This document shows positions 19,167 through 52,022 of a stretch of DNA of 64,000 bases, one piece after another. A model generated the notes under the pieces. It made no database searches, was not told where the DNA came from, and saw only the letters and a list, made by a program, of their open reading frames with translations. Numbering within the stretch: position 1 is the first letter of the stretch; the number at the start of each line of letters is the position of its first letter. The position numbers and the translations under genes are program-made. The DNA is taken from NCBI GenBank assembly GCA_937902925.1, contig CALFNN010000082.1, positions 1-64,000 of the forward strand, in the 5' to 3' direction. The DNA comes from an uncultured Opitutaceae bacterium (GTDB taxonomy: Bacteria; Verrucomicrobiota; Verrucomicrobiia; Opitutales; Opitutaceae).

Positions 19167-19631
19167 TTACGCGCGCGGCACGTTGATCCCGAGCGCGGCG
19201 CTCAGATCGATTGCGTGGTCCTGTTCCTGCACGATGATCCCGCGCAAGGTCTCGCTTAACCCAAATTCTCCCATCGCTTCGGCCTGCTGGATTCGCTCGC
19301 GATAGCGCCCGACGGTGATCCGTTCGTTCTCCAGATCCGCCTGCAGCATTTCGACCGGGTCGTTGGACGTTGTTACCGGCTTGGGTGTCACCGCCGGCAT
19401 TCCACCGAGGTAGTCAATCTGTCTGGCGATCTTGATGGCGTGCTGCAATTCCTCGGCCGCGTGCAGTTCCAATTCCCCGGCGACGTCCGTGTAAGCGGCG
19501 CCTTTCAGCACCTGGCTATACACCGTGTAGGCGATGATGGCCTGATATTCGCCGGCCAGATCTTCGTTGAGCAGCTCAATCATCTGCTCGCGCGTTATTT
19601 TAAATTCCGCAGGCGTTGGTTCTTTGGGCAT
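19167..19631 (-). CDS. Ferritin-like/bacterioferritin-like protein
   Basis: A 154-residue four-helix bundle protein predicted to hold a di-iron site. The spacing of acidic and His residues fits the ferritin-like pattern: NEDLAGEYQAIIAY in helix 1, ELELHAAEELQHA in helix 2, then LENERITVGRYRERI and IIVQEQDHAIDL in helices 3 and 4. The N-terminus MPKEPTPAEF is not a signal peptide, so it is cytosolic. It may store iron or protect against peroxide. It lies between the stress-protein genes and the MDR reductase with gaps of 24 and 30 bases, consistent with one transcript. Confidence 0.85.
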   Translation of the reverse strand: MPKEPTPAEFKITREQMIELLNEDLAGEYQAIIAYTVYSQVLKGAAYTDVAGELELHAAEELQHAIKIARQIDYLGGMPAVTPKPVTTSNDPVEMLQADLENERITVGRYRERIQQAEAMGEFGLSETLRGIIVQEQDHAIDLSAALGINVPRA

Positions 19632-21693: not shown

Positions 21694-21948
21694 CTACGAA
21701 GCGAGGATTCTGGCCTCGATCGAAAGGAGCGAAAAATCACCGGCGGGCCGGTGGAGATGCTGATGAAGACGGGTGCCGGACTGGTGCGGGGGAATGTTTG
21801 CGCGCAGGCACGCGGTGGCTTCCAGCCAGTTGGCGAGGTCCTGCCCGGGAGTGCAGCTGTCCTCCTGGTAGAGGTGAAAGGCGTAGGCACGAATGTCTGC
21901 TTCGCTGAACGCGGAAACAATGGGCGGCGGAAGGGATTGGTTATTCAT
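21694..21948 (-). CDS. Small DUF2934-like protein
   Basis: An 84-residue protein with the DUF2934-type helix-turn-helix pattern: ADIRAYAFHLYQED, then CTPGQDLANWLEATACL at residues 33-49. Function unknown. It is the first gene of a long minus-strand run, and a conserved promoter element (dyad 22029-22044, -10 at 22001-22006) lies upstream, predicting a leader of about 46 bases. The Asp/Trp/Leu-Glu-Ala core agrees with the family; the C-terminal 30 residues are not conserved in any way I recognise. Confidence 0.75.
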   Translation of the reverse strand: MNNQSLPPPIVSAFSEADIRAYAFHLYQEDSCTPGQDLANWLEATACLRANIPPHQSGTRLHQHLHRPAGDFSLLSIEARILAS

Positions 21949-22000: not shown

Positions 22001-22044
22001 CAATAAGCCTGTGGACCATCGGAGAGCCATGGGGTGTAACCCTA
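22001..22044 (-). promoter_or_regulatory. Dyad-type promoter, copy a (DUF2934/PRC-barrel genes)
   Basis: On the minus strand the 16-mer TAGGGTTACACCCCAT spans 22044 to 22029. After exactly 22 bases comes a -10-like TTATTG (22006-22001), predicting transcription from about 21994. The dyad would be centred near -43. It is one of eight copies in the window with identical spacing, and it is divergent to copy b. Confidence 0.7.
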
Positions 22045-22217: not shown

Positions 22218-22261
22218 GCGGGTAACACCCCATTCTTTCGTTTCGCGCGACGGACTATCTT
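22218..22261 (+). promoter_or_regulatory. Dyad-type promoter, copy b (VOC operon)
   Basis: The 16-mer GCGGGTAACACCCCAT spans 22218-22233. Twenty-two bases later is the -10-like TATCTT (22256-22261), predicting a start near 22268 and a 58-base leader to the VOC gene. Spacing is identical to the other copies. Confidence 0.7.
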
Positions 22262-24847: not shown

Positions 24848-24891
24848 CCGGGTTTCACCCCATAGTGATTCACGGGTGCGACCGATAGGAT
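24848..24891 (+). promoter_or_regulatory. Dyad-type promoter, copy c (collagen-OmpA gene)
   Basis: The 16-mer CCGGGTTTCACCCCAT spans 24848-24863. Twenty-two bases later is TAGGAT (24886-24891), predicting a start near 24898 and a leader of about 99 bases. Confidence 0.7.
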
Positions 24892-27699: not shown

Positions 27700-27840
27700 T
27701 GGATAACCGGGACGCGCGGAAAGAGTCCGGGGTCCGTGACGGAATCGTAGCGGGCGTCGGTGCGGCGGAACATGGGGTCTTCACGGCAGGGCCTTCACCG
27801 CGCGGCCCCGCACGCGAAGCGATGGTAGGTCAATGCCCCA

Positions 27841-27884
27841 TCTCGTTTCACCCCATATCAGCGGCACTCCTGCGTGGCTATCGT
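27841..27884 (+). promoter_or_regulatory. Dyad-type promoter, copy d (He_PIG gene)
   Basis: The 16-mer TCTCGTTTCACCCCAT spans 27841-27856; its right half is perfect and its left half degenerate. Twenty-two bases later is TATCGT (27879-27884), predicting a start near 27891 and a 59-base leader. A second partial copy, TAGGTCAATGCCCCAT, abuts it upstream at 27826-27841. Confidence 0.6.
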
Positions 27885-27949
27885 GGCTCCTTCATTCGCG
27901 CCGCGTCCGTCGCGCCCCCTTCATCCAGCGCACAGAAAAGAAGAATCAC

Positions 27950-30900
27950 ATGAAATACAGCACGCTCGTCTCATCGGCCCTTGTGGCCCTCACGGTTTTC
28001 ACGGGCATCCCAGCCCGCGCCGCCGACAACATGGCCTCCATCGGCATCACCCCTGCCACGGGCGTGGTCACGCTCCTCCCGCACTGGGCCATCGGGGGTA
28101 ACCTCGCGGGGTTTCATCAAATGTCGCAAAATCTCGGGCTGACGGGCAGCGTCGCCAACAATTTCTACTCGATCAGGGCCGGGACCATTCCGGCGGGCGG
28201 CGACATTCTCGCATTCAATTTCTATGTGCCGGGCTCCGGCTCGGCGACCCCGCATTCGGACATTGGCAGCAAACTGACGCCGGACTCCTATTCGGCGCTG
28301 ACCTCGGCCGATCCCGATGTCGGCTATGGCTCGGTTAATCTCTACCTCATCCATCACAAAGGGACGACGGACTACTTCACCGCCATCGTTCCCGGTTCCG
28401 CCACGTCCTCGGCGGTCACCGATGAGAAGCCGATGTCCGGACCCGGCGGCCCCGGCACGGTCACCGGCGTCAGCGGCTACTTCGGCCTGACATTCGCGGC
28501 CGGCAATCTGGGTTACGGTCTCAATAGTTTCTATTATCTCCGCACGGATCCGGTCAGCGGGATCACCAAGTTCGGCACGCTCGCCCCCGCATTGCTCGCC
28601 GGCTCGGCGGACCAATTCGATTTGGGCACCAGCGGCCACAAGGCCCTGGCCTTCACCGGCGCCGACGTCGGTTACGGCGTGAACAAGATGTATTATCTCC
28701 GGCTCGATCCCGTCACCGGCTTCACGATTTTCGGCATGCTGGACCCCGCCCTCGCGGGTGCCCGGCATACGTCCGACATCGCCAACCTCGGCAGCGTCTA
28801 TTCGACCCTGACCTTTGTTCCCGGTGACGTGGGATATGGCAGCAGCCAATTCTACACCACGGGCACGGTCAACACAACCTGGCAGTCCGTCAGCTTCGCC
28901 GCCATTGCCGACCAGGCGATCAGCAGCGGTTCGTTCGCGATCAATCCGACCGCAAGTTCCGCCTTACCGATCGTGGTTACCGTGGTGGCCGGATCGACGG
29001 GCGCCGCAACCATCAGCACGCCGGTTGGCGGCGTGTTCACCGTTACGCCCACCCAGCCCGGCATCGTCACGCTGCAGGCGACGCAGGTCGGCGCGGTCAA
29101 CCCGATTCCCTACGAATCCAATATGCTTCGGCAGAGCTTCACCGTCACCGGCATCGGTTATCCGGTTGTCACGAACTCCCCGCTGACGAAGGCGGGCACG
29201 GTCGGCACGGCGTTCAACTTTTCGATCACGGCTTCGAATTCACCGACTGTTTACACGGCCAGCCCGCTCCCGGCCGGTCTCGTATTTAACGGCGCCACCG
29301 GTGCCATCACCGGCACGCCCACCACGGTGGGTGTCACGTCGGTGCTGCTCGGCGCCACCAATGCCAGCGGCACGGGCAACGCCACGTTGACCGTCACGGT
29401 CGCCGCTGCGGGTGTCGCCCCAATCATCACAAACAGTCCGCTGACAGCCGCGGGGACCATTGGCACCGTCTTCAGCTTTTCGATCACCGCCTCGGGCACG
29501 CCCACGACCTACACCGCGAGTCCGCTCCCGGCCGGTTTGAGCATTGCAGCCGCAACCGGTGTCATCACCGGTATCCCCACCACGGTGGGTGTCACGTCGG
29601 TGCTGCTCGGCGCCACGAACGGCACGGGCACGGGCAACGCCACGTTGACCATTACGGTGGCCGCCGCCGGCGTGGCCCCGATCATCACGAACAGTCCGCT
29701 GACCGCGGCAGGCACCATCGGCACGGCGTTCAGCTTTTCGATCACCGCCTCGGGTTCGCCCGCGAGCTATACCGCCAGTCCGCTGCCCGCAGGTTTGACC
29801 GTCGTGGCCGCGACCGGAGTTATCACGGGCACGCCTACGACTGCGGGAGTCACGTCGACGGTTCTCAGTGCGACGAATGGCACCGGCACCGGTAGCGCCA
29901 CGCTCACGATCACGGTGGCCGCCGCTGGCGTGGCCCCGATCATCACGAACAGTCCGCTGACCGCAGCGGGCACGGTCGGCACGGCGTTCAGCTTTTCGAT
30001 CACGGCTTCGGGCTCGCCCGCGAGCTATACCGCCAGCCCGTTGCCCGCGGGCCTGAGCGTTGTGGCGTTGACCGGTGTCATCACCGGCACGCCGACCACG
30101 GCCGGAGTCACGTCCGTCTTGCTCGGCGCCACTAATGGCACCGGCACCGGCACCGCCACCCTGACGGTCACGGTCGCCGCCGCTGGCGTGGCTCCGAATA
30201 TTACCAGCCCGACCACGGCACCCGGCACCGTCGGCACGGCCTTTGTCACTTATCAAATCATCGCCACCGGATTGCCCACGAGCTTTTCCGCGAGCGGGCT
30301 CCCGGCTGGGCTGACCATCAATACTTTGACCGGCGCAATCAACGGCACGCCCACCACGGCGGGCGTCTCGGTTGCGACGATCGGAGCCACGAACAGCACC
30401 GGCACCGCTACCGCCACCCTGACGATCACGGTCGCCGCTGCCGGCGTCGCGCCCGTCATCACGAGCGCGACCACGGCACCTGGCACCGTCGGCACGACCT
30501 TCGCCACCTATCAGATCGCCGCGACGGGCCTGCCCACGAGCTTTTCCGCCACCGGCCTCCCAGCCGGCCTGACCGTGAATACTTTGACCGGTGCGATCAA
30601 CGGCACGCCGACGGCGGCCGGCACGTCGGCTGCAACGATCAAGGCCACCAATGGCACGGGCACCGGAACTGCCACTCTCACGATCACGGTCGCCGCGGCT
30701 GGCCTCCCTCCGGTCATTATCGTGCCGGTTCTCACGAGTGCGGCATCCGCTTCGGGCACTGTCGGCGCACCCTTCGTCACCTACCAAATCACCGCGACCG
30801 ACAATCCCACGAGCTACGCTGCCAGCAACCTTCCGCCCGGACTGGTGATCAACACCCTGACCGGCAGGATCACCGGCACGCCGGTTTCGACAGGTAGTTA

Positions 30901-31996
30901 TCACGTCTCATTGAGCGTCATCGGCGCCGACGGCATTGGCTCCAACTCATTACTCATCGCGATCGCTCCGGGCATCAGCGTGCCGCCGGCGAGCGCCACC
31001 GTGGCCTCCGGCGCGGGAGCGACCTTCTCGGTCACCGCAAACACCGGCGGCAATTCCGTGACCTATCAATGGCAGAAAGACGGCGTGAACATCCCCGGTG
31101 CCACGGGTGCGAGCCTCACGGTCGCGAACGTGCAAGCTGCCAACATCGGATCTTATCGGGTCGTCGTTTCCAGTTGGGACACGTCAACGACCAGTGTGGC
31201 CGCGGTGTTGGGAATGACTTTCACGGGCCAGATCGCCGGCACCGCCGTCCTGGCTGGTGCGAATATCCAGCACCCAAATGGCAATTTCTACGATCAGGTT
31301 CAGCTCACGGGCGTAGCCGCGAGCACGAAAGCCGTATCCGGCCGGGTGGTGCGCGTGTCCTTTGTCGACCTGACCGACGACATTGTGCAGGTGGAAATGA
31401 GTGGCGCGGGCGTGCTCACGATCAATTTGGAGGGTTCCAGTGGGCCCGCCTCACCGGTCAAATACAACCAGCCGGGTGTGCTCTACATGAAAGGCCAGGC
31501 TTCGATTGCGATCACGGGCGCCGATGCCACCACGAACGTCAGTATTTTCAGCGTGGGGCGCTCCAATGCGGTCGACCAGACGCTCTTCATTCCTGGAGTG
31601 ACCTATGACGGTTATGCGGACATCGCGCTCGTCACCGTCGCCAGCGCGGATGGCAGCTTTGGCGGCCTGCGCACGGCGAATGCGAGTTATTTCCGCGCCA
31701 ACGGCACGACGGGAATCTACGCGCCGGGCGTGCGGTTCAACGGCCCGGTGTTTGTCAGCGACATCGATGGCGCCAACACGGCGAACGCCGATCTGATCCT
31801 GGGTTCGGTGACCGACGCACGCGTCACCGGCGGCGATTTGTTTCAGGACAACGGCGGTGCCGTGGAGGTCAGTGGAATGACGCGCCTGCAATTTACCGCC
31901 GGCACTTCGTCCGGCGGCATGCTGTTGCCGGCGCAGGCAAACCGCGGCGTGCTCATGACCAACGGCGCAGTAGTGACCAGTCAGCTGGTGCCCTGA
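27950..31996 (+). CDS. Large exported He_PIG (putative Ig) repeat protein
   Basis: A 1,348-residue secreted protein. The signal peptide (LVSSALVALTVFTGIPARA) is followed by about 380 residues of repeated Gly/Tyr-rich beta segments (GYGVNKMYYLRLDPVTGF type). Seven He_PIG/cadherin-like Ig repeats of 86 residues follow, from about residue 406. Next come an immunoglobulin I-set-like domain (VTYQWQKDGVNIPGATG, near residue 1045) and a C-terminal beta-rich domain of about 270 residues. No PEP-CTERM, autotransporter barrel or lipobox is apparent, so how it is displayed or secreted is unclear. ATG 27950 was chosen as the signal peptide start. A perfect terminator follows. Confidence 0.85.
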   Translation: MKYSTLVSSALVALTVFTGIPARAADNMASIGITPATGVVTLLPHWAIGGNLAGFHQMSQNLGLTGSVANNFYSIRAGTIPAGGDILAFNFYVPGSGSATPHSDIGSKLTPDSYSALTSADPDVGYGSVNLYLIHHKGTTDYFTAIVPGSATSSAVTDEKPMSGPGGPGTVTGVSGYFGLTFAAGNLGYGLNSFYYLRTDPVSGITKFGTLAPALLAGSADQFDLGTSGHKALAFTGADVGYGVNKMYYLRLDPVTGFTIFGMLDPALAGARHTSDIANLGSVYSTLTFVPGDVGYGSSQFYTTGTVNTTWQSVSFAAIADQAISSGSFAINPTASSALPIVVTVVAGSTGAATISTPVGGVFTVTPTQPGIVTLQATQVGAVNPIPYESNMLRQSFTVTGIGYPVVTNSPLTKAGTVGTAFNFSITASNSPTVYTASPLPAGLVFNGATGAITGTPTTVGVTSVLLGATNASGTGNATLTVTVAAAGVAPIITNSPLTAAGTIGTVFSFSITASGTPTTYTASPLPAGLSIAAATGVITGIPTTVGVTSVLLGATNGTGTGNATLTITVAAAGVAPIITNSPLTAAGTIGTAFSFSITASGSPASYTASPLPAGLTVVAATGVITGTPTTAGVTSTVLSATNGTGTGSATLTITVAAAGVAPIITNSPLTAAGTVGTAFSFSITASGSPASYTASPLPAGLSVVALTGVITGTPTTAGVTSVLLGATNGTGTGTATLTVTVAAAGVAPNITSPTTAPGTVGTAFVTYQIIATGLPTSFSASGLPAGLTINTLTGAINGTPTTAGVSVATIGATNSTGTATATLTITVAAAGVAPVITSATTAPGTVGTTFATYQIAATGLPTSFSATGLPAGLTVNTLTGAINGTPTAAGTSAATIKATNGTGTGTATLTITVAAAGLPPVIIVPVLTSAASASGTVGAPFVTYQITATDNPTSYAASNLPPGLVINTLTGRITGTPVSTGSYHVSLSVIGADGIGSNSLLIAIAPGISVPPASATVASGAGATFSVTANTGGNSVTYQWQKDGVNIPGATGASLTVANVQAANIGSYRVVVSSWDTSTTSVAAVLGMTFTGQIAGTAVLAGANIQHPNGNFYDQVQLTGVAASTKAVSGRVVRVSFVDLTDDIVQVEMSGAGVLTINLEGSSGPASPVKYNQPGVLYMKGQASIAITGADATTNVSIFSVGRSNAVDQTLFIPGVTYDGYADIALVTVASADGSFGGLRTANASYFRANGTTGIYAPGVRFNGPVFVSDIDGANTANADLILGSVTDARVTGGDLFQDNGGAVEVSGMTRLQFTAGTSSGGMLLPAQANRGVLMTNGAVVTSQLVP
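29165..30970 (+). repeat. Seven tandem He_PIG coding repeats (258-base period)
   Basis: Unit starts at 29165, 29423, 29681, 29939, 30197, 30455 and 30728. The first six are exactly 258 bases apart; the sixth is 15 bases longer. Units 2-4 are the most alike (SPLTAAGT, then YTASPLPAGL, then TGVITG); units 5-7 are more diverged (FSASGLPAGLTINTLTGAI type). This pattern fits recent duplication of the central units. Confidence 0.88.
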
Positions 31997-32192: not shown

Positions 32193-32236
32193 TAGGGTAT
32201 CACCCTATCGCAATCCCGGCGCTAAGAGCGTCTAAT
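32193..32236 (+). promoter_or_regulatory. Dyad-type promoter, copy e (kaiC operon)
   Basis: The 16-mer TAGGGTATCACCCTAT spans 32193-32208 and is the most symmetric copy. Twenty-two bases later is TCTAAT (32231-32236), predicting a start near 32243 and a long leader (198-267 bases depending on the kaiC start). Confidence 0.7.
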
Positions 32237-32247
32237 CGTATTAGACG
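32229..32247. promoter_or_regulatory. Inverted repeat overlapping the kaiC-operon -10
   Basis: The palindrome CGTCTAAT-CGT-ATTAGACG has two perfect 8-base arms. It covers the predicted -10 hexamer and the start point of promoter e. It could be a repressor operator or an RNA hairpin at the very 5' end. It is absent from the other seven promoters. Confidence 0.5.
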
Positions 32248-32509
32248 GATGTTCGCCAAGTGACGATACCCTGCCGTGTGACCGATTGAGAGCTGCGGCC
32301 GCGTGAAGCGCCTCCGCAATTGAAACAGGTGACAGGGAATGAATCATGATGAAAAAACACTGGGGTTGGCGCTACATCATTTCGCGGCACTGCGCGTCCC
32401 TTGACGTGAGCGGCGCGCGAATCGCTTTTCGCGGAGTTGCATGTCGTGCTCGCATTCGCCCCGCCGGGCCATGGAAGGGTCTCCGCTTCCTTCTGCTTCT
32501 CGGCCCGTC

Positions 32510-34267
32510 ATGAAAACGAACGCCTCCAAAACCAGCGGGCGGGCGGTGGCGCTGCCGAAATGCGCCACGGGCATCAAGGGTCTCGACGAAATCACCGGCG
32601 GCGGTTTGCCGCGCGGCCGGCCCACGCTGGTTTGCGGGAGCGCGGGTTGCGGCAAGACGCTCCTGGCGGCGGAATTCCTCGTGCGCGGCGCCGTGCAGTT
32701 CAACGAACCGGGCGTGCTGGTCGCGTTCGAGGAGACCGAGGCGGAGCTGACGGCCAACGTCGCCTCGCTCGGTTTCGATCTGGCCGGCTTGATCCGGCGC
32801 AAAAAAATCGTGCTCGATTACGTCCATGTCGAGCGCAGCGAGGTTCAGGAAACGGGCGAGTATGACCTGGAGGGACTGTTCGTCCGGTTGAACCACGCGA
32901 TCGATTCGATCGGAGCCAAGCGCGTGGCGCTCGATACACTGGAAGTGCTGTTCGCCAGCCTGCCCAACGAGGCGATCCTGCGCAGCGAACTGCGGCGGCT
33001 TTTCCGCTGGCTCAAGGACAAGGGCGTGACCGCGGTCATCACCGCCGAGCGCGGTCGCGAATCGCTGACGCGTCACGGCCTGGAGGAATATGTTTCCGAC
33101 TGCGTCATTCTGCTCGACCACCGGGTCTACGACCAGATCGCCACGCGGCACCTGCGCGTCGTGAAATACCGCGGCGCGCTGCACGGCACCAATGAATTCC
33201 CGTTTCTCATCGGCGCGGATGGCATCAGCGTGCTGCCGATCACGTCGCTGGCGCTCAATCACCAGGCGTCGACCGAACGAATCGCAACCGGCATCCCGCG
33301 ACTCGACGCCATGCTCGGCGGGCGCGGATTCTTCCGGGGAAGCAGCATCCTGCTCACCGGCACGTCCGGCACGGGCAAGTCGATCATCGCCTCCAATTTT
33401 GCGCAGGCGGCGGGCCGACGCGGGGAGCGCGTGCTTTTCTTTTCGTTCGAGGAATCGCCCAATCAGATCATCCGCAACATGCAGTCCATCGGCTTGCGGC
33501 TCCAGCCGCTGGTGAAGCGCGACCTGCTGCGCATCCACTCGGCGCGGCCCACGCTCTACGGCCTCGAGATGCATCTCGCCACGATGTTCAAGGAGATCGC
33601 CAACTATCGGCCCGACGTCGTCATCGTCGATCCCATCACCAGCCTGATGGATTTGGGCACCGCCTCCGAGGGCAAGGGAATGGTCACGCGGCTGATCGAT
33701 TACCTGAAGGCCGGACAGGTCACCTCGCTCTTCACGAGCCTGACCCAGGGCGGCGCGGCGCCCCAGCAAACGGAGTCCACGATGTCATCCCTGATGGATG
33801 CGTGGCTGCTGCTGCAGGACTTCGAGGGCAACGGCGAACGCAATCGCGTGCTCTACGTGCTCAAGGCGCGCGGCATGGCGCACTCGAACCAAGTCCGCGA
33901 ATTCCTCATTTCGAATCACGGCGTCGACGTGGTGGACGCCTACATCGGACCCAGCGGCGTGCTGACCGGTTCGGCGCGCGCCGCCCAGAGCTCCCTCGAA
34001 ATGGCCGCCGTAGTGGCCGGCCAGCAGGAAGCCGAGCGCCGCAAGCGCGAGATCGAGCGCAAACGCGCGGCGATCATGCGGCAGATCGGCGGCCTGCGCT
34101 CCGATTTTGAGGCCGAGGCGGTCGAACTGCGGCGCATTGACGAGCAGGTCGGCACCAGCGCGCTCCGCCTGAACACCGAGCGGGCGGCGTGGGGCCGCCT
34201 GCGCCAGGCGGACGCCAAGACGGCTGGCACACGCCGCCAGCGCCGGCCCGCAAGGAAACACCGATGA
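32510..34267 (+). CDS. kaiC: KaiC-like double RecA-domain ATPase/kinase
   Basis: A 585-residue KaiC homologue with two RecA-type ATPase domains. The first has Walker A GSAGCGKT at residues 43-50 and the catalytic acidic pair in FEETEAE; the second has GTSGTGKS (Lys at residue 290) and FSFEESPNQ. At the position of the cyanobacterial phosphorylation pair Ser431/Thr432 it has Ser426-Ser427 in TMSSLMDAW. A C-terminal extension of about 90 residues is coiled-coil and basic (EAERRKREIERKRAAIM), which cyanobacterial KaiC lacks. The start at 32510 is the most compact choice; ATGs at 32441 and 32471 are in frame. It overlaps kaiB by four bases (ATGA). Confidence 0.9.
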   Translation: MKTNASKTSGRAVALPKCATGIKGLDEITGGGLPRGRPTLVCGSAGCGKTLLAAEFLVRGAVQFNEPGVLVAFEETEAELTANVASLGFDLAGLIRRKKIVLDYVHVERSEVQETGEYDLEGLFVRLNHAIDSIGAKRVALDTLEVLFASLPNEAILRSELRRLFRWLKDKGVTAVITAERGRESLTRHGLEEYVSDCVILLDHRVYDQIATRHLRVVKYRGALHGTNEFPFLIGADGISVLPITSLALNHQASTERIATGIPRLDAMLGGRGFFRGSSILLTGTSGTGKSIIASNFAQAAGRRGERVLFFSFEESPNQIIRNMQSIGLRLQPLVKRDLLRIHSARPTLYGLEMHLATMFKEIANYRPDVVIVDPITSLMDLGTASEGKGMVTRLIDYLKAGQVTSLFTSLTQGGAAPQQTESTMSSLMDAWLLLQDFEGNGERNRVLYVLKARGMAHSNQVREFLISNHGVDVVDAYIGPSGVLTGSARAAQSSLEMAAVVAGQQEAERRKREIERKRAAIMRQIGGLRSDFEAEAVELRRIDEQVGTSALRLNTERAAWGRLRQADAKTAGTRRQRRPARKHR

Positions 34268-34608
34268 AAACCAAAACGGCAAAACGTCGCGCACCCGTCC
34301 CCCGGCCGCCGGCCAAACTGTGGCAACTGCGGCTTTATGTGATCGACGAGATGCCCAAGTCGCGGACGGCGTTCGCCAACCTCAAGGAGTTGTGCGAAAC
34401 CCACCTCAAGGGGCGGTATCGGATCACGGTGATCGACTTGTTGAAGCATCCCGAGCTGGCCAAAGGCGACCAGATCCTCGCCGTTCCGACCGTCGTGCGC
34501 CGGTTGCCGAGCCCCGTGCGCACCATCATCGGCACGCTGACGGATACGGCGCAAGTATTGGTCGGCCTCGATTTGCGGCCGGCCGGACAGCCCAAACGAA
34601 CGCCCTGA
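34264..34608 (+). CDS. kaiB: KaiB-like protein (first copy)
   Basis: A 114-residue protein with the thioredoxin-like KaiB fold: LWQLRLYVID at the first strand, then ITVIDLLKHPELAKGDQILAVPTVVRRLPSPVR near residue 52, and GLDLRP at the end. In cyanobacteria KaiB binds the KaiC C1 ring and helps reverse its phosphorylation. The N-terminal 18 residues are a basic Pro-rich extension. It is translationally coupled to kaiC (ATGA overlap). There is no kaiA in the window. Confidence 0.88.
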   Translation: MKTKTAKRRAPVPRPPAKLWQLRLYVIDEMPKSRTAFANLKELCETHLKGRYRITVIDLLKHPELAKGDQILAVPTVVRRLPSPVRTIIGTLTDTAQVLVGLDLRPAGQPKRTP

Positions 34609-34640
34609 AAACAAACCCCACCATCCGCACGCGGCGGGCC

Positions 34641-34958
34641 TTGGAAAAAACTGCGGCCGGCGGGACTTCCGGCAAATACGTCCTGCGCCTGTTCGTGGCG
34701 GGGGCCACGGCCCGCTCGCGCGCGGCCGTGCTGCACGTCCGCCAGCTGTGCGCGGCCGAACTGAGGGCTGGCTGCCAGTTGGAAGTGATCGACATTTATC
34801 AGCAGCCCGAGCTGGCCCGTGCCAACCAGATCGTCGCGACGCCGACGCTCGTCAAGGCGCTGCCCCGCCCGGTGCGCCGGTTCATCGGCAACCTCCTGAA
34901 CACCTCCGGCCTGTTTGGCGGATCCGACGAGGTCGAAGTCATCAATTCCGCCCCGTGA
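34641..34958 (+). CDS. kaiB: KaiB-like protein (second copy)
   Basis: A second KaiB-type protein: KYVLRLFVAGATARS, then LEVIDIYQQPELARANQIVATPTLVKALPRPVRRFIG. The core strand/helix layout matches the first copy. No ATG or GTG exists at the right place; the most reasonable start is the TTG at 34641, giving 105 residues. A CTG at 34604 is an alternative. The stop overlaps the GTG of the following kinase gene (GTGA). The two copies are clearly diverged rather than a recent duplication. Confidence 0.82.
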   Translation: MEKTAAGGTSGKYVLRLFVAGATARSRAAVLHVRQLCAAELRAGCQLEVIDIYQQPELARANQIVATPTLVKALPRPVRRFIGNLLNTSGLFGGSDEVEVINSAP

Positions 34959-36178
34959 AACCGACTCGGGGTCAAAGCTCCTCCCCGCTCGCGATGGCCG
35001 GCGAAATCACGCGGCTTCGCGCCCGTCTCGCGGAGACCGAGGAAACGCTCCGCGCCATCCGCACCGGCGAGGTCGACACCGTGGTGGTCGCGGGCAGACG
35101 GGGTCGGCAGGTGTTCACGCTGATGGGCGCCGAGCATGCCTACCGCGTGCTCATCGAATCCATGAACGAGGGGGCCGTGACCCTGAGCGCGGACCAGACG
35201 ATCCTCTATGCCAACCAGTGTTTCGCGCGGATGGTCCAATGCCCACTGGAGCAGGTGACGGGAGGTTCCTTTCGCCGCTTCCTCTCCCCCGGCGACAACG
35301 CGATCCTCCGACCGCTGATGAAGCGGGCCGGCCGGACCGGCTCCAAGCTGCCGGGACGCCTCACGACGGCCGGCGGCACGCTCGTGCCCGTCCAGATTTC
35401 CATCCGCGAAATCGATCAGGCGGGAGCAACGAACCCGACCTTCGGCCTGGTCGTGACCGATCTCTCGGAGCCCCGCCGGGCCGAGGATATGCTGCGGGCC
35501 TTGACGCACCGCGTCGTGCAGGTGCAGGAGGCCGAGCGCGCCAGCCTGGCCCTCGAGTTGCACGACCATATCACGCAGCCGTTGATCGCCGTCCTTTTCA
35601 GCAGCCAGACGTTGACGGAAAAGCTCTCGGCGGGTGACCGGGCCGCCCGGGACGAGGCGGTGAAACTCCGCGAGCTGCTCAGCCGGACGGCCGACGAAGT
35701 GGAGCGCATCTCACGCGACCTGCGGCCGAGCATCCTCGAGCACCTGGGTCTTTTCGCCGGCTTGCGCGCTGCGGGCCGGGAATTCGCGCAGCGAACCGCG
35801 GTCGCGCTCGAGCTGGCCGGTGCGCCGCTGATGCCGCGGTTGCCGGCCGAAACCGAGCTGGCGTTTTACCGCATCTTCCAGGAAGCACTGAAAAACATCG
35901 AACGGCACGCCCGGGCCAGCCACGTGACCGTGTCGCTGAGCCAGCCGGGGGAATTCGTGCAATTGGTGATCATCGACGATGGGATTGGTTTCGACGCGAT
36001 ACGGCATGCGGCGAAGCGGGAAGAGAAGGCCACGTTAGGCCTGGTCGGGATGCGCGAACGGGCGGTCAATGTGGGCGGCACCGTTACGGTCAAATCCGGT
36101 CTCCGGGTCGGCACGGAGATCGAGGTGCGTGTTCCCTATCCGCCCGGCACGACGGCGGCGGACCGGACCGCCGCTTGA
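34955..36178 (+). CDS. PAS-domain sensor histidine kinase (HisKA_3 type)
   Basis: A soluble 407-residue sensor kinase. A short coiled coil (ITRLRARLAETEETLRAIR) leads into one PAS domain (about residues 60-175) and a HisKA_3 dimerisation domain with the phospho-acceptor His203 in ELHDHITQPL. A HATPase domain follows, with NIERHARASHVTV (N box), DDGIGF (G1) and LGLVGMRERA. HisKA_3 kinases usually partner NarL-type regulators; a candidate is the regulator at 40204-40890. It starts with GTG overlapping the kaiB stop, so all four genes of this operon are chained. The ATG at 34994 is a possible alternative start. Confidence 0.9.
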   Translation: MKPTRGQSSSPLAMAGEITRLRARLAETEETLRAIRTGEVDTVVVAGRRGRQVFTLMGAEHAYRVLIESMNEGAVTLSADQTILYANQCFARMVQCPLEQVTGGSFRRFLSPGDNAILRPLMKRAGRTGSKLPGRLTTAGGTLVPVQISIREIDQAGATNPTFGLVVTDLSEPRRAEDMLRALTHRVVQVQEAERASLALELHDHITQPLIAVLFSSQTLTEKLSAGDRAARDEAVKLRELLSRTADEVERISRDLRPSILEHLGLFAGLRAAGREFAQRTAVALELAGAPLMPRLPAETELAFYRIFQEALKNIERHARASHVTVSLSQPGEFVQLVIIDDGIGFDAIRHAAKREEKATLGLVGMRERAVNVGGTVTVKSGLRVGTEIEVRVPYPPGTTAADRTAA

Positions 36179-36200: not shown

Positions 36201-36244
36201 TAGGGTTTTACCTTATGGCTATTCGATGGAACCGGGAGTTTAAT
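36201..36244 (+). promoter_or_regulatory. Dyad-type promoter, copy f (CheB-CheR-kinase and response regulator)
   Basis: The 16-mer TAGGGTTTTACCTTAT spans 36201-36216. Twenty-two bases later is TTTAAT (36239-36244), the best -10 match of the set, predicting a start near 36251 and a 69-base leader. It lies upstream of the gene pair that includes the LuxR-type regulator. Confidence 0.72.
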
Positions 36245-36319
36245 TAGGATTAGCCGGAAGTTTCGTCACGCCGACCTCGCACCCGCCGTGCAGTCGGTGC
36301 CTCGCGAGGCCGACGGCTG

Positions 36320-39300
36320 ATGTCATCCAGCCACGACCGGAAATGCCTCATGATTAAAAATTCCCGCCCGAAGAATCCCGCGCGCGGGGCGGTGTGCCCG
36401 ATCGTTGGCCTCGGCGCCTCCGCGGGAGGCTTGGTGGCGTTCACCCAGTTGTTGAAGGAACTCCCGGTCGACACCGGATTCGGATTCGTGGTGGTGCAAC
36501 ACCTGGACCCGCTGCACCAGAGCGCGCTCGCGCAACTGCTGGCCCGCGCCACGGCGATGCCGGTGCGCGAGGCGGCGAACAACCTGCGCGTGCTCGCCAA
36601 CCACGTTTACATCATCCCGCCCAACGCGAGCATGGGCATCGTCCGCGGCCGGCTGAAGCTTCAGCCGCGCACGCGCAACGGCATGGCCTCGCGTTCGATC
36701 GATGTCTTTTTCGAGGCGCTCGCGAGGGATCAGCAGGAGCGCGCGATCGGGGTGATCCTGTCGGGCAACGCTAGCGACGGCACGATCGGCCTCGAGGCGA
36801 TCAAGGCGGAGGGCGGGCTCACTTTTGCGCAGGACGACTCGGCCCGCTATGAATCGATGCCGCGCAGCGCCATTGCGGCCGGCTGCGTGGACGCCGTGCT
36901 CTCCCCGGCGCAAATCGCGCGGGAGGTGGCCCGGATCGCGCGGCATCCCTATGTCGCGGGTCCGGCAGCGGTGGCGGCAAATCGTCGCGGGGCGGCGGCT
37001 TCGGCGGACCCGTCTGCGCCGGCGGGGCGGCCCGAGCAAGATAGCTACAAGAAGATCCTGCTCCTTCTTCGCAATCACACCGGGGTCGATTTTTCCTACT
37101 ACAAGCCCACCACCATCCGCCGGCGGATGACGCGCCGCGCGGTGCTGAACCACCGGGAATCGCTGGCCAACTATGCCGAATTCCTGCGGGGCAATGCGCG
37201 GGAAATCGAGGCGCTCTATGCCGACACGCTGATCAGTGTGACGGGTTTTTTCCGGAATGCGGACGCGTTCGCCGTGCTCAAGTCCAAGGTCCTCGCCAGG
37301 CTGCTCGCCCAGCGGGGCGACGCACCGCTGCGGGTCTGGGTGCTCGGCTGTTCCACCGGGCAGGAGGCTTATTCCATCGCGATGCTGTTCACGGAGGCCG
37401 CCGCGAAATCCCACCGGCCGCGCAAGCTCCAGATCTTCGCCACCGACCTCAGCGAGACCAACCTGAACCGGGCGCGCCATGGCCTTTATCCCAAGAGCGT
37501 CACGCTGGACGTTTCGCCGGATAGGTTGCGACGGTTCTTCGTCCCGGAGGATGGCGGTTACCGGGTGATCAAGTCCCTCCGCGAACAGGTGGTGTTCGCC
37601 CGGCACAATCTCATCAGCGATCCGCCGTTCTCGCGGATGGATCTCATCACCTGCCGCAACGTGATGATCTACCTCGAGCCGAGCCTGCAGCAGAAGGTGC
37701 TCCCCGCGTTCCACTACGCGCTCAAGCCCGAGGGCTATTTGTTCCTGGGCGGATCGGAATCCGTCGGCGGCCACACCGACCTGTTTGCGCCGGTGGACAA
37801 GAAGCAGAAGATCTTTTCGCGGAAGCCGGCGACGACGCTCGCGTTGCAGCTGCCGGTGCGAACCGAGTTCGGCAACGGCAATGGATCCGGCGCGGCGCGC
37901 GTGCCGGCGCTGACCGGCCGGGGTCCGGGCGGGCCGACCGAGGATTTCCGGGGCGAGCTCAACGCCGAGCGCGAGGCGGATCGCGTGACCGTCAATCAGT
38001 TCGCGCCGCCCAGCGTGCTGATCAACGACGACCTGCAGATCCTGCAATTCCGCGGACCAACCGGGCTTTACCTCGAACCGCCGACGGGCAAGGCGCGATT
38101 CGACCTGCTGAAGATGGCCCGCGAGGGCCTGATGCTGCCGTTGCGCACGGTGATCAATCGCGCAAGAAAGGAGCACCAGACCGCGAGAAAGGAAAGCGTG
38201 CCCTTCAAGCTGGATGGCAGGAACCGCGCCGTGAGCCTGGAGGTCGTGCCGCTGAAAAATCTCAAGGAGCGGCGTTATCTGGTCCTGTTTCAGGATGCGG
38301 AAAAACGCGGACCGGGCGCGCCGGCGAACGTCGAAATCCCGCGCATTTCCCCCGTCACCAAGCGGGAGGAATCCAGCCGGATTGCGGCCTTGGAACAGGA
38401 GCTCGCCGAGACCCGCGACTACCTGCAATCCATTCAGGAGCATCAGGAGACCGCGAACGAGGAACTGCAGGCGGCCAACGAGGAGGGCCAGTCCGCCAAC
38501 GAGGAATTGCAGAGCCTCAACGAGGAACTCGAGACCTCCAAGGAGGAGTTGGAATCGACCAACGAGGAACTGACCACGGTCAACGAGGAGATGGTCAGCC
38601 GGAACGCCGAGCTGAACCGGCTGAACAGCGACCTCACGAATCTCCAGACCTCGACCCGGCTGGTCATTGTGCTGCTTGGGCGCGACCTGACCATCCGCCG
38701 GTTCAGCGCGCAGGCCGAAAAACAATTCCATCTCCACGCGGCCGACCTCGGGCGATCGATCGGCGGGATCAGGCACAATCTCGACCTGCCGGACCTCGAG
38801 GCGCTCATCGCGGAGGTCGTCGCCGACGTCCGGGAGTGCGAGCGCGAGGTGCAGGACAAGGATGGCCGCTGGTATTCGCTGCGCGTGCGCCCCTATCTCA
38901 ACCTCGACAACGCGGTGGATGGCGCGGTGCTGGTGCTGGTCGATATCACGGCGCGCAAGGAGGCCGAGCACGAGATCGTTCGCGCCCGTGACTTTGCCGA
39001 GGCGGTCATCGGCACGGTGCGCGATCCCCTCCTCGTGCTGGATGCCGGCCTGCGCATCCACGAAGCCAACGAGGCGTTCCTGGACACGTTCAAGGCCACC
39101 CATGAAAAGCTGGCGAATCGCTCGCTCTTCGAACTCGACGGCGGCCGCTGGGACATCCCGCGGCTCCGCACGCTATTGCAGGACATCCTGCCGCGCGACA
39201 CGTCGTTCGACAACTTCGAGGTCACGCTGAAGACCAGGAATCGCGGCACCCGCACCGTGCTGCTCAATGCCCGGACGTTGAACCAGGATTCCGGACACCG

Positions 39301-40207
39301 GGAAAAGATCCTGCTGGGATTTCAGGACATCACGGCGCGCAAGGCCGTCGAGGAAGCGCTGCGGGTGGCCGAGGTCCAACTGGCCTCGCACGCCGCCAGA
39401 CTGGAAGGCACCGTGGCGAAGCGCACCGCGCAATTGACCGCGAGCAACGCGCGGCTGCTGGCCTCGGTGCAGTCCATCACCAAGGGCAAGGAGGAGTATC
39501 GGGCGCTGCTGCACGAGGCGCAGCTCCTGCAGAAAAAGCTCCGCCAGGTGACGCACCAGATCCTGACGGCGCAGGAGGAGGAGCGGAAGAAGATCAGCCG
39601 GGAATTGCACGACGAGGTCGTGCAGACGCTGGTGGGCATCAACGTCGAGCTGTCGGCGCTCGTCCACGGCAATTCCGCGGGGGTGCGCCAGATCAAGGAC
39701 AAGATCGCGCACACGCAGCGCCTGGTGGAAAGCTCGGTCGACGCGGTGCACCGTTTCGCCCGCGACCTGCGGCCGACGGTGCTCGACGACCTCGGCCTGA
39801 TCCCGGCGCTCCATGCCTTTTGCCGGGGCCTCGCGGAGCGGAAAAAATTCAAGATCGAACTGACGGCCTTTGGCGGCGTCGAAGCCCTCGCCAGCGACAA
39901 ACGGACCGTGCTGTTCCGCGTCGCCCAGGAAGCGCTCAACAATGTCGCGCGCCACGCGCGCGCCACGCAGGTCGTGGTGACCATCGCCAAGATCCCCGGC
40001 GCGGTGCGGATGGAGATCAACGACAACGGCAAATCATTTCCCGTCCAAAAAGTGCTCCAGGCCAAAACCAACCGGCGCCTGGGCCTGGTCGGCATGCGGG
40101 AGCGCGTCGAAATGGTCGGCGGCTGCCTGACCATCGAATCCACGCCCGGGCAGGGAACGATCGTCCGGGCAGAAATCCCCTTTACCCCGGAGCCCATAAA
40201 AAAATGA
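36320..40207 (+). CDS. CheB-CheR-PAS-histidine kinase fusion protein
   Basis: A 1,295-residue signalling protein without membrane helices. The CheB methylesterase domain (residues 27-210) has its catalytic triad in GASAGG (Ser34), VQHLDP and GNASDGT. The CheR methyltransferase domain (about 238-500) has the SAM-binding VLGCSTGQEAYS and the FFRN motif. A coiled coil with repeated NEELQ units (about 690-775), PAS domains (about 780-1020), a HisKA_3 domain with His1097 in ELHDEVVQTL, and a HATPase domain (NNVARHAR, LGLVGMRERVEMVGG) follow. Its ATG at 36320 and one at 36350 are both plausible. It overlaps the response regulator by four bases, indicating a cognate pair. Confidence 0.92.
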   Translation: MSSSHDRKCLMIKNSRPKNPARGAVCPIVGLGASAGGLVAFTQLLKELPVDTGFGFVVVQHLDPLHQSALAQLLARATAMPVREAANNLRVLANHVYIIPPNASMGIVRGRLKLQPRTRNGMASRSIDVFFEALARDQQERAIGVILSGNASDGTIGLEAIKAEGGLTFAQDDSARYESMPRSAIAAGCVDAVLSPAQIAREVARIARHPYVAGPAAVAANRRGAAASADPSAPAGRPEQDSYKKILLLLRNHTGVDFSYYKPTTIRRRMTRRAVLNHRESLANYAEFLRGNAREIEALYADTLISVTGFFRNADAFAVLKSKVLARLLAQRGDAPLRVWVLGCSTGQEAYSIAMLFTEAAAKSHRPRKLQIFATDLSETNLNRARHGLYPKSVTLDVSPDRLRRFFVPEDGGYRVIKSLREQVVFARHNLISDPPFSRMDLITCRNVMIYLEPSLQQKVLPAFHYALKPEGYLFLGGSESVGGHTDLFAPVDKKQKIFSRKPATTLALQLPVRTEFGNGNGSGAARVPALTGRGPGGPTEDFRGELNAEREADRVTVNQFAPPSVLINDDLQILQFRGPTGLYLEPPTGKARFDLLKMAREGLMLPLRTVINRARKEHQTARKESVPFKLDGRNRAVSLEVVPLKNLKERRYLVLFQDAEKRGPGAPANVEIPRISPVTKREESSRIAALEQELAETRDYLQSIQEHQETANEELQAANEEGQSANEELQSLNEELETSKEELESTNEELTTVNEEMVSRNAELNRLNSDLTNLQTSTRLVIVLLGRDLTIRRFSAQAEKQFHLHAADLGRSIGGIRHNLDLPDLEALIAEVVADVRECEREVQDKDGRWYSLRVRPYLNLDNAVDGAVLVLVDITARKEAEHEIVRARDFAEAVIGTVRDPLLVLDAGLRIHEANEAFLDTFKATHEKLANRSLFELDGGRWDIPRLRTLLQDILPRDTSFDNFEVTLKTRNRGTRTVLLNARTLNQDSGHREKILLGFQDITARKAVEEALRVAEVQLASHAARLEGTVAKRTAQLTASNARLLASVQSITKGKEEYRALLHEAQLLQKKLRQVTHQILTAQEEERKKISRELHDEVVQTLVGINVELSALVHGNSAGVRQIKDKIAHTQRLVESSVDAVHRFARDLRPTVLDDLGLIPALHAFCRGLAERKKFKIELTAFGGVEALASDKRTVLFRVAQEALNNVARHARATQVVVTIAKIPGAVRMEINDNGKSFPVQKVLQAKTNRRLGLVGMRERVEMVGGCLTIESTPGQGTIVRAEIPFTPEPIKK

Positions 40208-40890
40208 CTGTTTCCAAGAAAATCGCGGTCCTGCTGGCCGAGGATCACGCCATCGTGCGACAGGGCCTGTCCGCCCTGCTGAACGCCGACGGCGGCTTCG
40301 TGCTGGTCGGCGAAGCCCGCAACGGCCGCGAGGCCGTGAATTTGGCGCAGACCCTTCACCCCGAAGTCATCCTGATGGATATCGCGATGCCGGTGCTCAA
40401 CGGGCTCGAGGCGACGCGGCAGATTCTCGACGCCAACCCGGCGGCGAAGGTGCTCATTCTCTCCGCGCATAGTGACGACGAATATATCGAACGGATGAGT
40501 TCGGCCGGCGTGGCTGGGTTCCTCGAGAAGCAAACCTCCGCCGAAATCCTGGCTTTCGCGATCCGCCAGATTGCGTCGGGCAAGAAGTATTTCAGCCCCC
40601 GGATCGCCAAACGCCTCGGGGAGGTCGCGGCCAAGCCGCGCGACCGGAACGGGATGGTCAGGGCCAACGGCGGCCGCCTGACTTCCCGCGAGACCGAGGT
40701 GCTGCAACTGGTGGCCGAGGGGCACGCCAACAAGCAGGTCGCGTCCGAGCTCAGCATCAGCATCAAGACCGTCGAAAAGCACCGGCAACACCTGATGGAC
40801 AAGCTCAACATTCATGAGACCGCGGGCCTCACGCGTTACGCCATCGCGCATGGCATCATCGAAAACACCGTGCAATTGACGATCATCTGA
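40204..40890 (+). CDS. NarL/FixJ-family response regulator with LuxR-type HTH
   Basis: A 228-residue transcription regulator. The receiver domain has an acidic pocket (LLAEDH) and the phosphorylatable Asp59 in VILMDIAMP; Lys108 is in the GFLEK segment. The C-terminal domain, from about residue 158, has the LuxR/GerE helix-turn-helix (LTSRETEVLQLVAEGHANKQVASEL, then IKTVEKHR), interrupted only by normal variation. It starts in the ATGA overlap with the kinase. It is the only DNA-binding regulator in the window and the natural candidate for binding the dyad promoters, one of which controls its own operon. Confidence 0.94.
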   Translation: MTVSKKIAVLLAEDHAIVRQGLSALLNADGGFVLVGEARNGREAVNLAQTLHPEVILMDIAMPVLNGLEATRQILDANPAAKVLILSAHSDDEYIERMSSAGVAGFLEKQTSAEILAFAIRQIASGKKYFSPRIAKRLGEVAAKPRDRNGMVRANGGRLTSRETEVLQLVAEGHANKQVASELSISIKTVEKHRQHLMDKLNIHETAGLTRYAIAHGIIENTVQLTII

Positions 40891-40947: not shown

Positions 40948-40991
40948 CAGGGTTTCACCTTATATAGCGCGCATGGAACTTGGTGTAGCGT
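40948..40991 (+). promoter_or_regulatory. Dyad-type promoter, copy g (coiled-coil membrane protein)
   Basis: The 16-mer CAGGGTTTCACCTTAT spans 40948-40963. Twenty-two bases later is TAGCGT (40986-40991), predicting a start near 40998, only about three bases before the ATG at 41001. Either the mRNA is nearly leaderless or the true start codon is further downstream. Confidence 0.65.
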
Positions 40992-41000: not shown

Positions 41001-41726
41001 ATGCCTGAATATCCCGTTTCCACTCCGGCGAAAACCGCCGCGTCACCTCCCGGTTCCTCAATCGCGGCGCCCCCCGGGGTCGCGCCGGAAAAAACGGCGG
41101 TCGCGGTGCCGGTGGCCGGCGCTCGAGGCATCAAGGACCGCGCTCCCGTTGTGGCCGGGCCGCTTCCGCGCTGGATCGCTCCGCTGACCGTCGCGCTCGG
41201 GGCGTTGTCCGCCGCGCTTTTGATAACGGTCGTGATCCTCTGGAGCCAGGTGGGTGCGCGCGACACGACCATCGTGGAAAATCGAAATCGAGCCGATCAA
41301 CGGGATGTCGCCGCGACGGAAATGCGGGGCCAGTTGGACGGTGCCAAGGCAGACTCGACCAAGCTTCAATCCCAGGTCGAGGCCGCCAAGACCGAGTCGG
41401 CCCAGCTCAGCGGCAAGGTGGCGGAGGGGAAGGCCGGCGCGGTCGAGCTCGGAACCCGGTTGGAAAAAGCCAAGGCGATCTCCAACGGTTTCCAGTCGGG
41501 CATGGAGGACGCCAAGGTCGCCGCCATCCGGGAGCAGGGACTGGCGGAGAAGGCCAAGGCCCAGGCCACGGTGATGCAGACCCGGCTCGATGCGGCCGAG
41601 TCCGACCGGACGAGACTTCAAACGCAATTGGTGGACAGCCGGGCCGAGGCCGACGCTTTGCAGGCAAAACTGGACAAGGCGGAAGCGGCGATCGCCCAAC
41701 TGCAAAAGACACTCGCGCAGAAATAG
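41001..41726 (+). CDS. Single-pass membrane protein with long coiled coil
   Basis: A 241-residue protein. The N-terminal 55 residues are Pro/Ala-rich and probably disordered in the cytoplasm, followed by one membrane helix (IAPLTVALGALSAALLITVV, about residues 59-80). A periplasmic coiled coil of about 150 residues follows, with heptad-like stretches such as LQSQVEAAKTESAQLSGKV. No family is recognised. It sits between the signalling block and the outer-membrane assembly genes. The gene is preceded by promoter g with almost no leader. Confidence 0.75.
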   Translation: MPEYPVSTPAKTAASPPGSSIAAPPGVAPEKTAVAVPVAGARGIKDRAPVVAGPLPRWIAPLTVALGALSAALLITVVILWSQVGARDTTIVENRNRADQRDVAATEMRGQLDGAKADSTKLQSQVEAAKTESAQLSGKVAEGKAGAVELGTRLEKAKAISNGFQSGMEDAKVAAIREQGLAEKAKAQATVMQTRLDAAESDRTRLQTQLVDSRAEADALQAKLDKAEAAIAQLQKTLAQK

Positions 41727-50810: not shown

Positions 50811-51331
50811 GCAGGAGAAAGGGGCGCCGCGGGCCAGAGGGCGCGCGGGTCGAACGCCCGGGTGGCGAGCACGGTCAGCACCACGGCCGCGGCAAACGCG
50901 ACAATGCCGCCGCGGGGCGTCACGGTTGATAACTCGCCGAACCGCACGAGGCCCGTGAGGAAGGCGACCAGGAAAACGTCGAGCATCGACCAGCGTCCGA
51001 TGAAATCGAGTGCGGCGTAGACTCGCGTCAGGCGGCGTGCATTCCCGGCGACACCCCGTCGGATGCTGAATAGCAGCCACGCCAGACCGAGCAGCTTGAG
51101 GAACGGAATGAGGATGCTGGCCGTGAACACAATGATGGCGAGGACCCACAGGCCTTGCTGCCAGAGCTCGACCGCGCCGGAGAATATGGTGTCGCTGCGG
51201 TTGCGGCCGGAACTCGCCGTGCTCAGGACCGGAAGCAGGTTGGCCGGCACGAGCATCACGGCGGCGGCCAGGGCGAGGGCGGCGGAAGCGGAGGTGCTTT
51301 TGAACCGGGCGCGGGCGGAGCGAAGGTTCAT
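50807..51331 (-). CDS. pqiA: PqiA-like membrane protein (second)
   Basis: A 174-residue protein with four membrane helices, such as AALALAAAVMLVPANLLPVL and GLWVLAIIVFTASILIPFLKLLGL. The conserved PqiA pieces VPANLLPVL and IPFLKLL are recognisable, and the late motif GRWSMLDVFLVAFLTGLVRFG is typical. It lacks the Cys-rich zinc ribbon seen in the first copy. PqiA proteins are inner-membrane partners of PqiB. It starts in an ATGA overlap with the first copy. Confidence 0.85.
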   Translation of the reverse strand: MNLRSARARFKSTSASAALALAAAVMLVPANLLPVLSTASSGRNRSDTIFSGAVELWQQGLWVLAIIVFTASILIPFLKLLGLAWLLFSIRRGVAGNARRLTRVYAALDFIGRWSMLDVFLVAFLTGLVRFGELSTVTPRGGIVAFAAAVVLTVLATRAFDPRALWPAAPLSPA

Positions 51332-51870
51332 GGCGGGAAGCCGGCGTCGGATCCGCCGGTCGACAGCGACCGGTCGGCCGACTCGAATTCGAAACTGCGC
51401 TGCGCGATCAGGAGAGAAAGGACCATCGCGCAATAGAACCAGAAGCCGGATCCGACCGTGACGACGACCACGCTGCCCAGCTTCATGAGCGCGACGAGGA
51501 CCGCCAGCACCTGGACCTCGGGAATCGCCCAATGCTCGAGGACGCGGACCGCGCGACGCACGGTGCGGAAGTCGAACTGCCGCCAGCCGAGACGGGTGGA
51601 CGCGTGGAGAAGTGCCAGGGCGGCGAGGAGCAAGACCGGAAGCAGCCAGCCACCGAGGAAAACCAGAACGGCCAGCGCACGCATGCCGGTCTCCCACAGG
51701 CTAGTCACACCCGTAAACAGCAGGCTGATCCGTTCGGCTCCGAGCTTACCCGCGCTGACAAATGGGAGCAAAGCGGCGGGCACCGCGAGGACCAGACCGG
51801 TGACCGAGAACACGAGAGCGCCATCGGGTCCCAGTCGCACGCCCTGCGCCAACAGGGTGCCACAGCGCAC
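51328..51870 (-). CDS. pqiA: PqiA-like membrane protein (first), start uncertain
   Basis: A 180-residue protein as drawn from the GTG at 51870, with four membrane helices and the motif IPEVQVLAVLVALMKLG in place of the second copy's SMLDVFLVAF. The family usually opens with a zinc ribbon of two CxxC pairs. In frame and upstream of the GTG the sequence indeed encodes TCNLCGQD and then VCVRCG, so the real start is probably a CTG at 51939 or an ATT at 51966, both non-standard. The start at 51870 would cut the ribbon in half. A dyad promoter predicts transcription from about 51972. Confidence 0.8.
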   Translation of the reverse strand: MRCGTLLAQGVRLGPDGALVFSVTGLVLAVPAALLPFVSAGKLGAERISLLFTGVTSLWETGMRALAVLVFLGGWLLPVLLLAALALLHASTRLGWRQFDFRTVRRAVRVLEHWAIPEVQVLAVLVALMKLGSVVVVTVGSGFWFYCAMVLSLLIAQRSFEFESADRSLSTGGSDAGFPP

Positions 51871-51978: not shown

Positions 51979-52022
51979 ACAGTATCGTCGGGCGGTCGCG
52001 CCCGATATGGGGTGTTAACATC
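51979..52022 (-). promoter_or_regulatory. Dyad-type promoter, copy h (PqiA-PqiA-PqiB operon)
   Basis: On the minus strand the 16-mer GATGTTAACACCCCAT spans 52022 to 52007, with a perfect right half and a weak left half. Twenty-two bases later is TACTGT (51984-51979), predicting a start near 51972. Spacing is identical to the other seven copies. Confidence 0.6.

Follow-up and report, generated by a model that had tools for sequence, protein, structure and literature searches.

Which protein reads the dyad GGGTNNNACCYYAT that recurs in front of genes in the window (the whole 64,000-nt stretch of Opitutaceae DNA analyzed here)? The first-pass annotation proposed the LuxR-type response regulator encoded at 40204-40890 (hereafter REG) as its likely binder, arguing from position and protein family. 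The proposal is partly supported, by linkage at individual loci and by co-occurrence within genera, while its exclusivity is not. The link between REG and the dyad is well supported but unproven, because some relatives keep the dyad without REG; judged by sequence comparison, REG is probably a dyad binder but not the sole one across the family.

REG and the dyad promoters of the window

REG has the composition of a NarL/FixJ-type response regulator. Its frame (ATG at 40204 to TGA at 40890, plus strand) encodes an N-terminal receiver (Pfam Response_reg, 3.4e-25) with the phospho-acceptor Asp motif VILMDIAMP in its translation, followed by a C-terminal GerE helix-turn-helix (1.1e-18) whose recognition helix, according to the helix alignment, is SIKTVEKHRQHLMDKLNIHE. 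Apart from a Sigma70_r4_2 match below the cut-off, Pfam returned only these two domains and no autoinducer-binding domain. A HisKA_3-type kinase gene (36320-40207) lies beside REG, as is typical of NarL/FixJ-type regulators, and its stop codon overlaps the REG start codon in an ATGA. As annotated, the operon of REG is preceded by a dyad, copy f at 36203, and both HisKA_3 kinase operons, 34955 (PAS-HisKA_3-HATPase_c by Pfam) and 36320, lie downstream of copies (32195 and 36203, respectively). REG also proved to be the sole DNA-binding regulator of the window among the 50 frames scanned with Pfam, with frame 27833-31996 and short frames among those outside the scan. This large frame contains 258-nt tandem repeats and has a weak dyad promoter at 27843. 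At 1784-19631(-), carbon and energy genes adjoin stress-type genes, the gene kinds there being glycosyl hydrolase 15, G6PD, phosphorylase, phosphoglucomutase, RpiB, aldolase, cytochrome bd, and ferritin-like.

A position matrix located eight dyad promoters, which fits the number annotated, at 22042(-), 22220, 24850, 27843, 32195, 36203, 40950, and 52020(-) (Table 1); with the window reversed, no site exceeded 9 bits. The exact core is present in six of the eight and absent from the weak copies 27843 and 52020. Across the 6.0-Mb genome, the refined core GGGTWWHACCYYAT has 11 matches versus none for the reversed pattern, distributed over the window contig C82 (6), C90 (3), and C7 (2), and the looser core GGGTNNNACCYNAT has 21 matches versus 3; the number of dyads in the genome exceeds chance. 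Searched against Rfam with gathering thresholds, the window gave no matches, placing the dyads in no known curated RNA family or riboswitch.

The circuit is not self-contained within the window, as had been suggested. Further dyads of the same genome lie on contigs C7 and C103, and contig C90 encodes a second REG-like regulator (C90:33381-34061), 74% identical to REG, with the same recognition helix and its own dyad upstream. Among the 28 GerE genes of the genome, only REG and this C90 paralog have a dyad match within 1.5 kb. The third REG-like gene of the genome (on C73, with an E-K helix) showed no match above 11 bits. The C90 paralog, with its identical helix, probably binds the same sites as REG.

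Table 1. Dyad promoters and neighboring genes in the window, with matrix scores of promoters and evidence for genes.
Feature	Coordinates	Strand	Score or evidence
REG operon, dyad promoter f: GGGTTTTACCTTAT, with TTTAAT 36 nt downstream of the first G	36203..36244	+	34.4 bits
Dyad promoter, KaiC-KaiB-KaiB-kinase gene run	32195..32236	+	29.0 bits
Dyad promoter 5' of coiled-coil gene 41001	40950..40991	+	29.8 bits
Dyad promoter 5' of DUF2934 gene (21697-21948) and PRC-barrel gene (20941-21636)	22001..22042	-	27.2 bits
Dyad promoter 5' of glyoxalase-family gene 22326	22220..22261	+	33.7 bits
Dyad promoter 5' of collagen-repeat/OmpA gene near 24991	24850..24891	+	33.0 bits
Weak dyad promoter near start of 258-nt-repeat frame (27833-31996; real start probably further in)	27843..27884	+	18.9 bits
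Weak dyad promoter 5' of PqiA gene 51331-51870	51979..52020	-	13.9 bits
REG, NarL/FixJ-type (LuxR-class) response regulator, receiver and GerE	40204..40890	+	Pfam, sequence, helix alignment
CheB-CheR-PAS-HisKA_3-HATPase_c kinase, REG operon gene 1	36320..40207	+	Pfam
KaiC (frame 32441-34267), KaiB (in 34189-34608), KaiB (in 34641-34958), PAS-HisKA_3 kinase (34955-36178)	32441..36178	+	
PUMA_CC-type coiled-coil protein, recurrent dyad target	41001..41726	+	

Promoter architecture around the dyad

To characterize the surroundings of the dyad, we computed an information profile from 148 distinct sites, with the core as the sole selection criterion. Its strongest signal beyond the dyad and its flanks was a TAnnnT box, which starts exactly 36 nt from the first G of the dyad in 71 of the 148 sites, 35 nt in nine, and 37 nt in four. 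Taking this box as the -10 element (-12 to -7) places the dyad axis at about -43, which agrees with the annotated position of about -42 on predicted start sites. No -35 hexamer was recognizable in the profile, where the right flank of the dyad extends into the -35 region. The layout is that of an activator-dependent (class II-like) sigma70 promoter, with an operator near -42, a conserved -10, and no conserved -35, the start sites being putative.

The fixed spacing from dyad to -10 box, together with the sigma-factor genes that lie behind dyads in two loci, might instead mean that an alternative sigma factor recognizes the dyad and that no activator binds there. We consider this very improbable, as the element is a 4+3+4 palindrome next to an ordinary sigma70 TAnnnT, and sigma factors are not known to recognize palindromic -35 regions.

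Kinase-operon promoters additionally share a leader beyond the dyad and -10 box, AGACGG...GACGA...GCCGTG...GGCGGCCGC (window 32240-32310; L138 13205-13299(-); L015, L026, and L208), the consensus fold of which is weak (8 pairs, -4.29 kcal/mol). Three core matches in the REG-less genomes G060 and G017 read TAGGGGTWTTACCCTA, with no -10 box at the usual place (L210:213(-), L215:8392(-), L216:8848(+)), and may represent another element.

Linkage of dyads to REG loci

We then asked how closely dyads accompany relatives of REG, fetching 80 of 190 REG-like loci. These loci (1.09 Mb) contain GGGTNNNACCYNAT 52 times versus zero for the reversed pattern, and 100 matrix matches above 11 bits versus two reversed. 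Because the 113 training sites of the matrix were chosen for a -10-like box and some came from the very loci under test, we report exact-core counts alongside. Among loci with an E-K-H helix, a same-strand matrix match within 7 kb upstream of REG was found in 28 of 51, compared with one when the sequence was reversed and 14 when the opposite strand was read, and the exact core was found upstream in 17 of 51 versus none reversed. Loci with another helix triplet had an upstream match in only 3 of 17 (Fisher p 0.011), including L046, which retains a perfect dyad upstream despite its changed helix. This comparison excludes six of the 80 loci with less than 1.3 kb upstream and six more without a readable helix, three of which have an upstream match. 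The REG-like genes of L028, L029, and L049 have unusual recognition helices, and their upstream dyads are likewise off consensus, which possibly reflects co-variation or decay.

The distance from dyad to REG falls into three groups: around 1.2-1.3 kb, spanning one kinase gene (e.g., L009); 4.4-6.4 kb, spanning longer CheB/CheR-kinase genes (e.g., L022); and less than 0.5 kb, where REG stands alone or behind a short gene. In most loci the gap is mostly covered by open plus-strand frames, a weak test in GC-rich DNA. The autoregulatory layout noted in the window, a dyad upstream of the REG operon, is repeated in many relatives' loci, and it suggests that REG would regulate its own operon. Nevertheless, a dyad upstream of the operon marks REG as a target, not necessarily as the binder.

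Within the family, 27 of 31 REG loci have dyads (70 matches in 491 kb), whereas loci of a control LuxR-type regulator have them in 2 of 25 (2 matches in 395 kb); exact-core counts are 27 and 1, respectively. The 31 loci come from 38 places, leaving out the window, the C73 gene of the source genome, and five others, and including its C90 paralog, while 20 of the control loci were taken from REG genomes and five from REG-less genomes. No matrix match was present in four of the 31 REG loci. Around outgroup regulators with another helix, 13 loci contained no dyad matches at all.

Co-occurrence of dyads and REG across genomes

At the genome level, a REG-like protein (E 1e-60 or better) was detected in 29 of 100 family genomes, by scoring about 29 candidates per genome and, in the ten exceptional genomes described below alone, rescoring all candidates. 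Refined dyads averaged 4.7 per genome with REG versus 1.0 without (Mann-Whitney p 3e-7, uncorrected for kinship). In the 16 genera that hold both kinds of genome, dyads were higher with REG in ten, lower in four, and tied in two (one-sided Wilcoxon p 0.037); at a post hoc 59% identity cut, the outcome was nine up, two down, and two tied in 13 genera (p 0.007). Both the refined core (WWH) and the 59% cut were picked after the data had been seen, and the genomes are related, so that all p-values other than that of the within-genus test ignore kinship. Four REG-positive family genomes (G041, G068, G086, G088) have no refined dyads, although the REG loci of G041 and G088 nonetheless show matrix matches.

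For a wider comparison, 38 of the 80 REG-like loci, author-chosen and mostly non-Opitutaceae, were carried forward. In 26 further genomes, reached via REG loci outside the family draw (25 E-K-H, one D-K-H), we found 112 core matches versus 16 for the control; 29 of the 112 fall inside REG loci, which make up 0.28% of the DNA (0.3 expected), with none inside in 11 of the 26. In the isolate Brevifollis gellanilyticus, which encodes a REG with the E-K helix, there are three core matches versus one for the control, all three outside the REG locus. Conversely, 12 genomes with related regulators of another helix had 6 matches versus 10 for the control. In an acidobacterial metagenome-assembled genome (MAG), three of four dyad matches lie on the 11.7-kb contig of REG, and in another genome both of two lie within the REG locus; these contigs may be misbinned, a caveat for the acidobacterial, fibrobacterial, planctomycete, and kiritimatiellote loci alike. 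The co-occurrence expected of a regulator and its motif thus holds insofar as dyads are commoner with REG, also within genera, but not without exception.

Dyads in genomes that lack REG

Among the 71 family genomes without an intact close REG, ten carry 3-8 refined dyad matches each (G001, G049, G078, G060, G017, G053, G084, G023, G057, and G093). Among the matches listed for the refined core, 29 sites were read in seven of these ten (G084, G057, and G093's six core matches lying outside), of which 24 exceed 25 bits and 18 show the TAnnnT box at precisely the 36-nt spacing. Convincing sites number 4 of 4 in G001, 6 of 7 in G049, 5 of 6 in G060, 5 of 5 in G053, and 2 of 2 in G023, whereas G017 and G078 have just one each, out of three and two sites, respectively. 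The best matches to REG in the ten genomes are 37-41% identical, except for a 56% identical REG in G093, the frame of which is interrupted at residue 162. In G053, a REG-like helix is joined to a diverged receiver, and no dyads lie near this gene; G001 encodes just two GerE proteins, neither with an E-K helix; the GerE helices of G023, G057, G053, G078, and G084 were read in part. The promoter of the 41001-type coiled-coil gene retains its dyad in REG-less G049, G060, and G017. Since dyads are kept in REG-less genomes, the dyad can outlive REG. A strict one-to-one link is contradicted by these genomes, which are the refuting case that the annotation had named, and the pair is not exclusive in the source genome either, where the C90 paralog has the same helix.

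These exceptions bear directly on the main alternative to REG, namely that REG is merely a target, and that the dyad is bound by some other protein of wider conservation, with REG operons belonging to stress-gene clusters under its control. At least three dyad matches in each of the ten genomes, the same -10 layout at most of the sites read, and the retention of the 41001-type promoter without REG are consistent with such a general binder. Yet we regard it as rather unlikely, given the linkage of dyads to REG across many genomes, their co-variation within genera, and the lack of dyads around related regulators with another helix. Moreover, inspection by eye of the listed REG-less genomes found no DNA-binding gene that recurs directly 3' of dyads, whereas kinases do.

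We also considered named candidates. Other E-K-helix regulators of REG-less genomes (G053 C125, G017 C48, G060 C19, G057 C315) and C105, a relative in the source genome (G000), were rejected as binders, as the five stretches contain no dyads. A widespread LuxR-type regulator, the C39 kind, is encoded in 77 of 100 family genomes and could bind this dyad, on its own where REG is absent and alongside REG in other genomes. It provides the best match to the DNA-binding domain of REG in seven of the ten exceptions and the second best in three (52-65% identity), and at the cut-offs used each family genome with at least two refined dyads has a REG or a C39-type gene. However, dyads occur in just 2 of 25 of its loci, the control set above, and none was seen in its upstream regions, and at the contact positions presumed from NarL its residues are D-N-T versus E-K-Q in REG. 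In addition, 28 of 52 genomes having a C39-type gene and no REG show no dyad, the gene is absent at E 1e-65 from dyad-bearing G005, G045, and G096, and the comparison of dyads in REG-less genomes with and without it gives p 0.09. We consider a role for the C39 kind improbable, and disfavor it as the sole binder because its loci are mostly without dyads and it is absent from some dyad-bearing genomes. Of the 25 C39-type loci (e.g., L250, L300, L301, L303), 22 contain a tRNA-Lys (TTT) gene, and by eye it lies directly upstream of the regulator in several.

Candidate regulon and proposed mechanism

A census of the genes directly 3' of dyads started from 144 sites, of which 27 were dropped because no frame with a sufficient score followed them; members scanned with Pfam are named from it, the others by eye. 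The largest recurring class comprises kinases and response regulators, a cluster of 28 joined partly via shared domains. The coiled-coil family of gene 41001 has eight members, with the dyad 50-51 nt before the start in seven, and the arrangement of dyad promoter and gene is repeated in eight loci, including the window. Other recurring genes are PRC-barrel-like (5), small membrane proteins (5), glyoxalase-family (4), PRC/BON (4), and smaller groups; the label 'stress' is our interpretation of these families. Sigma-factor genes directly follow two dyads (L261:3803-4864(-), L033:10850-11602(-)), one with regions 1.2 to 4 and the other only with regions 2 and 4.

Altogether, the most likely reading of these sequences is that REG switches on its own kinase operon and stress-type genes via the repeated dyad. 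In this mechanism, the HisKA_3 kinases of its own and neighboring operons would phosphorylate REG, presumably upon a stress signal, and phosphorylated REG would bind the dyad centered near -43. Bound REG would then activate promoters of the sigma70 type, in which a -10 box is present but no -35 is recognizable. Its targets would include the kinase-REG operon itself, as autoregulation, the KaiC-KaiB-kinase genes, and further genes of stress or envelope type (PRC-barrel, DUF2934, glyoxalase-family, BON, and others). On present comparisons we think it reasonably likely that REG and the C90 paralog both bind and activate dyad promoters. More tentatively, and with some doubt, the dyad regulon could be a general stress response of Verrucomicrobiota under two-component regulators in place of a dedicated sigma factor, KaiC-KaiB included, which as a module has reached other phyla along with its regulator, as in the acidobacterial MAG, another regulator having replaced REG on the same sites in some lineages.

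If REG binds the dyad, genome sequences would suffice to identify a regulon throughout the phylum. Genomes that keep dyads without REG offer natural cases in which to test how a regulon persists once its regulator has been lost or exchanged.

Relation to known regulatory systems

Among the papers listed on stress, Kai, and LuxR regulators of Verrucomicrobiota, none describes a stress-type regulon or operator for Opitutaceae or Verrucomicrobiota, and none concerns the dyad. REG and its candidate regulon belong to the NarL/FixJ-type class of regulator and regulon. The closest solved sequences to REG are VraR (5hev, 4gvp) and, further off, NarL (1a04). Like VraR, NarL, DevR, and DesR, REG combines a receiver with a GerE domain, a nearby HisKA_3 kinase, and a putative dyad operator, but regulon and host group differ, and the dyad GGGTNNNACCYYAT is not known as a motif of any of these four. 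The lux box is likewise a dyad near -42 that is paired with a GerE domain, yet LuxR has an autoinducer-binding domain where REG has a phosphorylation receiver. The general stress responses of the SigB, RpoS, and EcfG type control kinds of genes akin to those downstream of dyads; they depend on a dedicated sigma factor, whereas here a two-component activator would act on a sigma70-type promoter. Finally, KaiC-KaiB-kinase clusters are known outside cyanobacteria, and the window has a comparable run of KaiC, two KaiB frames, and a HisKA_3 kinase; here the run lies behind the same type of dyad promoter as the REG operon.
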